Source of the DNA: Solibacteraceae bacterium
GTDB taxonomy: Bacteria; Acidobacteriota; Terriglobia; Bryobacterales; Bryobacteraceae
Reading direction: 5' to 3'
DNA length: 64,000 nt
Assembly (NCBI GenBank): GCA_026984795.1
Contig: JALSRK010000024.1
Coordinates: 372,001-436,000, forward strand
Part shown: one piece after another, positions 44,799 through 49,426 of the stretch
Layout: each line of letters opens with the position of its first letter
Position numbering within the stretch: the stretch's first letter is position 1
The notes under the pieces: generated by a model
Told to the model about the DNA's origin: nothing
Databases searched by the model: none
The model's input: only the letters and a program-made list of their open reading frames with translations
Program-made: the position numbers and the translations under genes

Positions 44799-45554
44799 AT
44801 GCGCTCGATTGGACTGGCGGAACTGCTGGTGATCGCGGGGATCCTGGCGCTGCTTTTCGGCGGCCGCCGGATCAGCGCTCTGATGGGAGCGTTGGGCCGC
44901 AGGCTGCGCGACACGTTCGATCAGGCGAAGTGGATCTACGAGTCCATCGGAGGAAGCGAGGAGGAGGCGCTCAAGGCTGAGGCCCGCGTGGGGGAGAAAC
45001 TGGCGGCCCGAATGCGCGAGAGCTATCCGCCGGACCCGGACCAGGGCGCGCAGGAACGCCTGCGGCGCCTGGGGGCGAAGCTGACGGCGCAAGCCGGGAA
45101 TCGTGAGTTCCATTTCCAAGTGGTCACGGCGCCCTTTGCCAATGCCTTCGCTCTGCCCGGCGGTTACGTATTCGTGACGCGGCCCCTGCTGGATGCGTGC
45201 CGCGGCGATGACGGGATGCTCGCCTTCTACCTGGGACACGAGATGGGACACATCCGGCTGCGTCACGCCGCTGAGCGCTACGCCGCCGAAGCCGTCCTGA
45301 AGGCGGTCGCGGCGCGGGCCGCGTTCGTGGCCGAGCTGCTGTCGAAGGGCTACTCCCGGGAGCAGGAGCGCGAGGCCGATCTCGAAGGGCTCCGCCTGGC
45401 GCGGCAAGCCGGCTACGATCCCCGGGCGGCCGTGCGGGCGATGAGGGCGATCGAACAGGCGGGCGAGGCCGCCGGCTGGCGCGAGTACCTCTCCACCCAT
45501 CCGCCGATGCGCGATCGAATCGCCACGCTCGAGCGCGAGGCAGCCAGGACGTGA
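44799..45554 (+). CDS. TatA-like segment fused to an M48 metallopeptidase
   Basis: A 251-residue protein starting at ATG 44799 after GGAAGAGGA. Residues 3-44 (IGLAELLVIAGILALLFGGR, then RISALMGALGRRLRDTFDQA) have the exact TatA/Hcf106 form: a short helix, Phe-Gly hinge, basic patch and an amphipathic helix. After a linker, residues about 80-250 are an M48 peptidase of the Oma1/BepA/LoiP type: FALPGGYVFVTRPLL, the zinc motif HEMGH (147-151), the third ligand in EREAD (190-194) and STHPPMRDRIATLE. M48 peptidases of this group degrade misassembled envelope proteins. A TatA-type anchor in place of a signal peptide is unusual and could direct it to the Tat site or simply tether it to the inner membrane. 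Confidence 0.85.
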   Translation: MRSIGLAELLVIAGILALLFGGRRISALMGALGRRLRDTFDQAKWIYESIGGSEEEALKAEARVGEKLAARMRESYPPDPDQGAQERLRRLGAKLTAQAGNREFHFQVVTAPFANAFALPGGYVFVTRPLLDACRGDDGMLAFYLGHEMGHIRLRHAAERYAAEAVLKAVAARAAFVAELLSKGYSREQEREADLEGLRLARQAGYDPRAAVRAMRAIEQAGEAAGWREYLSTHPPMRDRIATLEREAART

Positions 45555-46674: not shown

Positions 46675-48072
46675 CTACTTGCCCGGGCGCTTGCCTCGAC
46701 GATCTCTCACGACCTCCGCGCGATGCTCCTCCATCTCGGCGAGCATCCGCCGAACCACATCCGGGTGCTCGGCGGCGACGTTGAACCGTTCGCCCGGATC
46801 GGTCTCCACGTTGAACAGCAGCGGTGGATCCTGGACCGTCGTCTTGCGAGTACCGTTGGCCGGGAAATTGGTAATGACGTGGAGCTTCCAGGGCCCGCGG
46901 CGGTAAGCTCGCAGCTCGTGGCGGACCCAGAGGAAGATACGCGGCTCGCGGCCCGGGGCGTTCTCGAAGAGAACGTCGGAGACGTCGGCGCCGTCGTAGA
47001 CGCGGTCGTTCGGCAGCTCGACCCCCGCCAGGGCGGCGAAGGTGGGCAGCAGGTCCATCATGGTGACGAAGGCCCGGCTCTTGACGCCGGCGGGGATGTG
47101 GCCGGGCCAGCGGGCGATGCAGGGCATCCGGACGCCGCCTTCCCAGGTGCTGCCTTTTCCCTCGCGGAAGGGTCCCGGCGAGCCGCCGTTCTCCTTCTTG
47201 GCCAGCCACGGGCCGTTGTCGCTGGTAAAGACGACCAGCGTCTCCTCGTCGATGCCCAGGCGCCGGATCTCGGCCAGCACCTCGCCGACGCTCCAGTCCA
47301 GCTCCTCGACCACGTCCCCGTACAAGCCCCGGGGGCTGCGGCCGCGGAACCGCTCGCCGGGATGCAGCGGCGGGTGTGGCTCGATGTGAGCCAGATACAG
47401 GAAGAACGGCTGTTTGCGCTCCTCCACGGCGAAGCGCATGAACCGGAGGGCGCGCTCGGTGAAACGCCGGGTCAGTTGGCTCTGATCGGGTTCCTGCTCG
47501 ATCACGTAAATGCCCTCCATCAGCGGCAGCGGAGGTACCACGCGGAGCCGGTAGATCGGGTGCTTTGGATTATTCTTGCGGCTCATGTCGTTCGAATACG
47601 GCAGGCCGAAGAAGCGGTGGAATCCTTGGTTGAGCGGCAGGTAGCGGCGCTTGCGCCCCAAGTGCCACTTGCCGATGCACGACGTGATGTAACCGGCCTG
47701 CTGCAGCGCTTCCCCCAAGGTCAGCTCCGATGGGGGCAGGCCCCGGTTGGTGACCGGCGGCAGGACGGCGTTCATGCCGAAGCGCACCGGCAGGCGGCCG
47801 GTCATCAACGCCGCGCGGCTGGGGCTGCACAGCGAGGAGGCCGAGTAGAACTGCATCAACTGCATCCCCTCACGGGCCATCCGGTCGAGGTTCGGCGTGC
47901 GGATCGTCGGATGGCCGTAGACGCCCAGGTCCCCGTACCCGAGATCGTCGGCGAGGATCAGAACGATGTTGGGGCGAGTCCCGGCGTACCGGGCGGCAGT
48001 GACGGCGGGCGCCGCCGCGAGCAGGATCAGCAGCGGGCAAAGCAACCGGAAGATCGAAGCTTGACTACGCAC
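46675..48072 (-). CDS. Type I sulfatase, tandem copy 2
   Basis: A 465-residue sulfatase. GTG 48072 is taken as the start because it lies 1 nt beyond the TAG of the upstream sulfatase and begins a signal peptide (residues about 7-28, ending VTAA). Key motifs: NIVLILADDLGYGDLGVYGH (metal), CSPSRAALMTG (Cys82, formylglycine site), IGKWHLGRKRRYLP and FTSDNGPWLAKKENGG. It closely parallels the neighbour in FGLPYSNDM, RGRSPRGLYGD and WSVGEVL. Tandem duplication with tight spacing indicates one transcription unit. Substrate is unknown; the pair may act on different sulfate positions of one glycan. Confidence 0.92.
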   Translation of the reverse strand: MRSQASIFRLLCPLLILLAAAPAVTAARYAGTRPNIVLILADDLGYGDLGVYGHPTIRTPNLDRMAREGMQLMQFYSASSLCSPSRAALMTGRLPVRFGMNAVLPPVTNRGLPPSELTLGEALQQAGYITSCIGKWHLGRKRRYLPLNQGFHRFFGLPYSNDMSRKNNPKHPIYRLRVVPPLPLMEGIYVIEQEPDQSQLTRRFTERALRFMRFAVEERKQPFFLYLAHIEPHPPLHPGERFRGRSPRGLYGDVVEELDWSVGEVLAEIRRLGIDEETLVVFTSDNGPWLAKKENGGSPGPFREGKGSTWEGGVRMPCIARWPGHIPAGVKSRAFVTMMDLLPTFAALAGVELPNDRVYDGADVSDVLFENAPGREPRIFLWVRHELRAYRRGPWKLHVITNFPANGTRKTTVQDPPLLFNVETDPGERFNVAAEHPDVVRRMLAEMEEHRAEVVRDRRGKRPGK

Positions 48073-48073
48073 C

Positions 48074-49426
48074 CTAGGTCTGCGGTTCCCCTGGCTTGGT
48101 TTCTTCGACGTGCTTCCTGATAAGCGCCAGCAGCTCCTCGACCACGGCCGGGTGCTCGGCGGCGACATCGTAATGCTCGCCGGGATCGTGGAGCAGGTGA
48201 TACAGCAGCGGCGGGTCGTGCCCCACTGCTTCCGGCTTCCCCGAGGCCGGCTCGCGGGTCTTTACGTGGATCTTCCAAGGCCCTTTGCGAACGGCCCACA
48301 CCTCGGCGCCTTCGTAGTAGAAGAAGAGCGGCTCCCGCCCCGGGTCGTTCTTCAGCAACACGGCCGAGAGATCCGCGCCGTCCAGGACGAGATCTTCCGG
48401 CGGCTTCACCCCGGCCAGCGCCGCCAGCGTCGGCAGAATGTCCATCGTCGTGCCGAAGGCCTGGGTCGTGACGGCCGCCGGGACATGGCCGGGCCAGCGG
48501 GCCAGGAACGGCTCCCGGTGGCCGCCTTCCCAGGTGGTGGCCTTCCCCTCGCGCAAGAGGCCCGCCGAACCGCCGTCGAGCTTCTTGGTCAGCCACGGAC
48601 CATTGTCGGAGGAGAACATCACGAGCGTATCGCCGTCCACGCCCAGCTCCTTCAGCATGCGCAAGATCTCTCCGACGCTCCAGTCGATCTCCTCCACCGC
48701 GTCGCCGTACCGGCCCCGGAGGCTCCGGCCGCGGAACCGCTCACTGGCAAACAGGGGCACGTGCGGCATCGTGTAGGGGAGGTACAAGAAGAACGGCCGC
48801 TTGCGGCCGACGGCGTCGCGGATGAAGGCGATGGCTTCCTCGGTATAGCGCCGAGTGAGATAACGCTGGTCCGGCTCCTGCTCAATGACCCGCTCACCGC
48901 GCATCAAAGGCAGTGGAGGGGGGTGGTAACGGGCGGCCCGGGGGTTGTGGGCCGTAGTCATGTCGTTCGAATAGGGAAGTCCGAAGTAACGGTCGAAGCC
49001 GTGGCGCGTGGGCAGGTACTGCGGCCGGTGGCCCAGGTGCCACTTGCCGATGCACGCCGTCGTGTATCCGGCCTTCTTGAGCAGCTCGGCGATAGTGACT
49101 TCGCTGTCGGGAATGCCGCCCGTCGAGTAAGGGAACAGCACCCGCGTCAAGCCCGAACGGATCGGCAGCCGCCCGGTGAGCAGAGCGGCCCGGCTGGGCG
49201 TGCAGACGTTGGCGGCCGAATAGAACTGGGTGAAGCGCATGCCCTCGGCCGCCATGCGGTCGAGATTCGGCGTGCGGATCGTGGGATGGCCGTAGCACGC
49301 CAGATCGCCGTAGCCAAGGTCGTCGGCGAAGAAAAAGACGAAATTCGGTTTGGACTGGGCGGCGGCCGCCACGGCTGCGAGAACGACAACCCAGGCCAGC
49401 CCGGCGAAGCGAAAGCGAGACGGCAT
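48074..49426 (-). CDS. Type I sulfatase, tandem copy 1
   Basis: A 450-residue sulfatase with a signal peptide (residues 1-23, ending AAAAQ). Motifs: NFVFFFADDLGYGDLACYGH, the formylglycine site CTPSRAALLTG (Cys75), IGKWHLGHRPQYLP, FSSDNGPWLTKK and YHLLHDPGEHYDVAAEHP. The overall plan equals that of the downstream copy, roughly half of positions agreeing by eye. It is the first gene of the two-gene unit. A Tat-exported oxidoreductase gene ends 87 nt upstream on the same strand and may belong to the same operon. Confidence 0.93.
   Translation of the reverse strand: MPSRFRFAGLAWVVVLAAVAAAAQSKPNFVFFFADDLGYGDLACYGHPTIRTPNLDRMAAEGMRFTQFYSAANVCTPSRAALLTGRLPIRSGLTRVLFPYSTGGIPDSEVTIAELLKKAGYTTACIGKWHLGHRPQYLPTRHGFDRYFGLPYSNDMTTAHNPRAARYHPPPLPLMRGERVIEQEPDQRYLTRRYTEEAIAFIRDAVGRKRPFFLYLPYTMPHVPLFASERFRGRSLRGRYGDAVEEIDWSVGEILRMLKELGVDGDTLVMFSSDNGPWLTKKLDGGSAGLLREGKATTWEGGHREPFLARWPGHVPAAVTTQAFGTTMDILPTLAALAGVKPPEDLVLDGADLSAVLLKNDPGREPLFFYYEGAEVWAVRKGPWKIHVKTREPASGKPEAVGHDPPLLYHLLHDPGEHYDVAAEHPAVVEELLALIRKHVEETKPGEPQT

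Follow-up and report, generated by a model that had tools for sequence, protein, structure and literature searches.

TatA adopts an N-out/C-in orientation (PMC11867995), and its FK motif has been termed essential (PMC13186574). Tat has also been suggested to have a clearance system, and WprA of B. subtilis interacts with Tat (PMC6708511). In M48 peptidases, an HP plug motif has been described as general (PMC7950410). Among these, BepA (YfgC) is periplasmic and carries a signal peptide and a TPR domain. HtpX is a polytopic M48 protein whose peptidase faces the cytoplasm. In the 64,000-nucleotide stretch of a Bryobacteraceae genome analyzed here (the window), one gene joins a TatA-type N-terminus to an M48 peptidase domain (Table 1), an arrangement for which we found no description in the open-access papers searched.

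Comparison with TatA/TatE (PF02416, TIGR01411) revealed that roughly the first 38 residues of the fusion share the short helix, polar residue 8, FG hinge and LG pair (residues 32-33), whereas the FK motif and the acidic unstructured tail are missing and a peptidase domain is present. The best structural and sequence matches of the M48 core, with its HExxH, ExxxD and HPx4R plug motifs, are BepA/YfgC and the Geobacter M48 protein 3c37. Unlike BepA, the fusion has a TatA-type anchor and terminates right after the M48 domain without TPR, and it reaches 64.6 bits with the BepA equivalog model against a cut-off of 570. HtpX resembles it in being an M48 peptidase tethered to the membrane at the cytoplasmic face, as the fusion is predicted to be, but the fusion has a single, N-terminal hydrophobic helix, its anchor is unrelated, and the HtpX models give 10-19 bits, far below their cut-offs.

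A TatA-type N-terminus joined to an M48 peptidase

The gene corresponds exactly to one ORF with an ATG start, and as the open frame begins four codons upstream of this ATG, other starts are implausible. A TatA-type N-terminus on an M48 peptidase had been proposed in the initial annotation, and this was confirmed: PF02416 (TatA_B_E) matches residues 4-38 at 21.6 bits in the full protein (curated cut-off 21) and at 24.9 bits (E 1.2e-5) in a scan restricted to residues 1-64, and the M48 domain, with HEMGH and EREAD, is complete. On the same 64 residues, the NCBIfam tatAE model (TIGR01411) gives E 2.1e-6 and 27.2 bits, below the model cut-off of 53.9. Scanning the entire 5.2 Mb genome with PF02416 yields only three places, namely a 57-aa TatA, a TatB-like 189-aa ORF situated 0.8 kb from TatC, and the fusion ORF; 19 of 24 residues are identical between the start of the host TatA (MRSIGLPELLVILGIAVLLFGGRK) and that of the fusion (MRSIGLAELLVIAGILALLFGGRR). 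In addition, hhalign of a profile of 21 fusion N-termini against 15 TatA/B proteins of the family gave a probability of 98.6% and an E of 5.8e-16 over 43 columns, 13 of these 21 N-termini individually hit PF02416 with an E of 0.01 or better and none of the 21 hits another Pfam family, and the full-family profile reaches the TatA structures 9e07, 7b7o and 2lzs via its N-terminus. Across 26 family genomes, TatA matches over the cut-off in frames longer than 240 codons are exclusively M48 fusions (G000, G016, G026 and G027). Residues 1 to about 38 of the fusion are homologous to TatA.

Table 1. Features of the TatA-like/M48 fusion gene, in window coordinates
Feature	Position	Strand	Evidence
TatA-like/M48 fusion gene, 251 aa	44799..45554	+	full length kept in 17 of 237 family genomes
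TatA-type N-terminus and short transmembrane helix, residues 1-20 (MRSIGLAELLVIAGILALLF)	44799..44858	+	Pfam/NCBIfam, hhalign, AlphaFold helix 6-20
TatA FG hinge, residues 20-23 (FGGR)	44856..44867	+	model helix break at residue 21
Basic helix, residues 24-51; LG (32-33) and W45 conserved clade-wide; no FK motif	44868..44951	+	
Peptidase M48 domain, residues 85-247	45051..45539	+	Pfam 105.8 bits; Foldseek to BepA 6ait and 3c37
HEMGH zinc-binding/catalytic motif, residues 147-151	45237..45251	+	H147, E148 and H151 invariant in the family
EREAD (ExxxD), third zinc ligand motif, residues 190-194	45366..45380	+	E190, A193 and D194 invariant
HPx4R active-site plug motif, residues 234-240	45498..45518	+	H234, P235 and R240 invariant

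In the AlphaFold model (mean pLDDT 82), the break after the first helix falls exactly at the FG hinge and is followed by a helix spanning residues 22-51 and the M48 fold. Homologues keep this hinge rather than a plain anchor, F-G being retained in 15 of the 21 aligned fusions; the remaining six have LG, FC, LL or FN at this site. Fusion N-termini are of two types, the window type with a full TatA start and another beginning about six residues later (LLKLLIIAGLLLFFGAKLLP); several fusions of the shorter type have TTG, GTG or no obvious start codon, so that their exact N-termini are uncertain. The existence of a type without the first 5-6 residues of TatA, together with the loss of the hinge in one member (G051, FLLA), indicates that some TatA features are not strictly constrained. 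The segment after the hinge had been described as a basic amphipathic helix. A basic helix it is, but the amphipathicity of about residues 24-51 is modest, 5% of shuffles reaching its moment, and the FK motif is absent from all 21 aligned fusions (T39-F40 in the window fusion; in the TatA/B comparison set, F39 is invariant and K40 nearly so). Moreover, its LG...W part is common to M48 relatives without the TatA helix, and the post-hinge region is thus a feature of the whole M48 clade.

The peptidase domain scores above the PF01435 (Peptidase_M48) cut-off of 20.3 bits, its modeled catalytic fold matches known M48 structures in Foldseek, and the active-site set (H147-E148-H151, E190-D194 and H234-P235-x4-R240) is complete and invariant across the fusion family. 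Judged from its sequence, the protein is a predicted M48 zinc endopeptidase with a complete active site, and zinc-dependent proteolysis is expected.

Within the window, the fusion gene lies beside genes for a GntP permease and a zinc alcohol-dehydrogenase-type enzyme; elsewhere, a short-chain dehydrogenase, fucosidase, LeuA or ValS adjoins it. No gene neighborhood or operon partner is conserved, and since the neighboring genes vary, they suggest no substrate. Downstream of the dehydrogenase gene, the window also contains two adjacent sulfatase-like genes (46675-49426, minus strand), both with LADDLGYGDL.YGHPTIRTPNLDRMA.

Distribution and a second lineage

The initial annotation raised the question of the same domain order in other Acidobacteriota, and a family profile indeed recovered the fusion in 17 of 237 Bryobacteraceae genomes at 316-380 bits (next protein, 159 bits). 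The fusion also occurs in another acidobacterial family (f38), in seven genomes. As the carrier assemblies are drafts, including several MAGs, an assembly chimera or frameshift might be imagined to have joined a tatA gene to an M48 gene. However, the same junction is seen in 24 genomes spread over two families, with roughly 40-50% identity between the proteins, the window gene is one open frame with one start, and a separate tatA exists in the same genome; the recurrence across genomes rules this out, and we give it practically no weight. The domain arrangement is genuine and recurrent, is built from two known parts, and is undescribed as far as the open-access literature searched shows. The Bryobacteraceae genomes scanned for M48 also encode many paralogues each, with as many as eight matches and differing frame lengths.

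Phylogenetic analysis placed the fusions of both families and a group of helix-less relatives in one M48 clade with support of 100/99, the inner branches of which are weakly supported. Of the nine helix-less members, one is acidobacterial (family f54) and eight belong to the phylum set that surrounds a Kiritimatiellales genome, where they occur in 8 of 388 genomes, the Kiritimatiellales genome itself counted. The helix-less proteins start near the position of residue 26 in the window protein, with sequences such as ...SLAYLLGRKSAPLFFKANWVxKSLAGTExEKI, and have no hydrophobic N-terminal stretch, the best 15-residue hydropathy being 0.2-1.0 vs 2.7 in the window protein. The catalytic domain thus exists there without an export signal, and these proteins are apparently cytoplasmic M48 peptidases. 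The conserved N-terminal motif of the helix-less clade (LGR..., W, KSLAGTExEKI) was observed at loci L159-L165, L153, L154 and L003. Among the M48 groups closest to the clade but outside it are exported proteins bearing lipoprotein-type signals, which makes an ancestral periplasmic location plausible for the fusion clade.

A second lineage combining TatA_B_E with M48 was found in five of nine genomes of the acidobacterial family f39 (L155, L156 and L167-L171; genomes G315, G526, G550, G1055 and G1060). These proteins have starts like MIGLPELLLIVLIILLVFGTTRLSR and match TatA_B_E at 20.4-22.0 bits in full and 24.1-25.9 bits with the N-terminal piece, but they differ from the window fusion in their length of about 350 aa, with a C-terminal extension, and in their M48 clade. 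They adjoin Rhodospirillales M48s with lipoprotein-type signals (96/88), and a branch with 100/99 support lies between them and the window's clade, indicating that TatA-type N-termini were joined to M48 at least twice. Given that lipoproteins are the closest M48 relatives of this second lineage, a TatA topology, if it holds, would imply a change of compartment. The predicted structure of a second-lineage protein was too poor for use (mean pLDDT 41.5). In two second-lineage genomes (L170:2-976 and L171:3-986, plus strand), the opposite-strand neighbor is also zinc-peptidase-like (HEVGH ... EISADRAG).

Membrane topology and relation to the Tat system

K/R residues number 4-7 in the 25 positions following the helix but only 0-1 ahead of it in each of the 17 fusions checked. 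This charge pattern, the N-out/C-in orientation of TatA, and the helix-less relatives without an export signal together suggest that the peptidase probably faces the cytoplasm, and a catalytic domain on the cytoplasmic side of the inner membrane is the most likely prediction. The role in envelope (periplasmic) quality control put forward initially would probably lie on the wrong side of the membrane. Alternatively, the N-terminus could be an ordinary signal anchor merely resembling TatA and inserted N-in/C-out, with a periplasmic peptidase like those of BepA and LoiP. We consider this improbable: although other M48 groups close by in the phylogeny are exported and the second fusion lineage adjoins lipoprotein M48s, the matches to the TatA profile are specific beyond hydrophobicity, the positive charges come after the helix instead of before it, and no export signal of any kind is present in the helix-less relatives.

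We favor, as reasonably probable, a cytoplasm-facing inner-membrane M48 zinc endopeptidase anchored by a TatA-derived short helix and hinge. The helix and hinge would tether the M48 domain to the cytoplasmic membrane in the N-out/C-in orientation, and the tethered domain, with its core and HP plug of the BepA/3c37 type, would act at the cytoplasmic face, in the compartment of HtpX. More speculatively, the short, mismatched helix might confine the protease to patches of thinned membrane, and the protease could there remove damaged membrane proteins or stalled export proteins.

The host genome has separate TatA, TatB-like and TatC genes, which rules out the fusion as its sole TatA, and TatA/B-type genes are present in 26 of the 26 family genomes checked; with the FK motif missing and separate TatA/B-type genes in the carriers, the fusion is probably neither a replacement TatA nor a working TatA alone. 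Its helix might instead co-assemble with the host TatA or dock on TatBC, bringing the peptidase to translocation sites, which we regard as rather doubtful; removal there of misfolded or stalled Tat cargo, or of surplus Tat components, belongs to the same tentative proposal. The near-identity of the N-terminus with the host TatA, the retention of polar residue 8 and FG in the window-type group, and the occurrence of TatA-type N-termini in two separate M48 lineages are consistent with it, as are the clearance system proposed for Tat and its WprA interaction (PMC6708511). The TatA of the same genome is also slightly more similar to the fusion than those of other genomes (14.5 vs 13.4 of 24 residues, a value reached by 1.1% of pairings), but co-evolution is weak (pairing test on six pairs; mirror correlation 0.18), and this similarity may reflect shared ancestry alone. 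Against the proposal also stand the lack, in every aligned fusion, of the FK motif that TatA has in its amphipathic helix, the second N-terminal type without TatA's N-terminal residues, the presence of the fusion in about 7% of a family in which TatA/B-type genes occurred in every genome checked, and the absence of linkage to tat genes in the neighborhoods examined. Recruitment of the fusion to Tat sites may occur. Oligomerization through the TatA-like segment, also raised in the initial annotation, would have to do without the FK motif, which is important for the rings formed by TatA. The full form of the recruitment idea, a dedicated Tat-pathway protease, that is, a TatA-like subunit with its own peptidase that arose twice in Acidobacteriota and acts on the cytoplasmic side to clear or process proteins at Tat translocation sites, seems to us rather unlikely.

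Implications for Tat and M48 biology

There is no settled view of how cells get rid of Tat cargo rejected in proofreading, and a peptidase carried on a TatA helix would make this question directly testable. Even without a link to Tat, the fusions show the short helix and hinge of TatA put to new use as the membrane anchor of M48 peptidases, and among the long proteins over the profile cut-off in 26 genomes, this reuse concerns M48 peptidases only.
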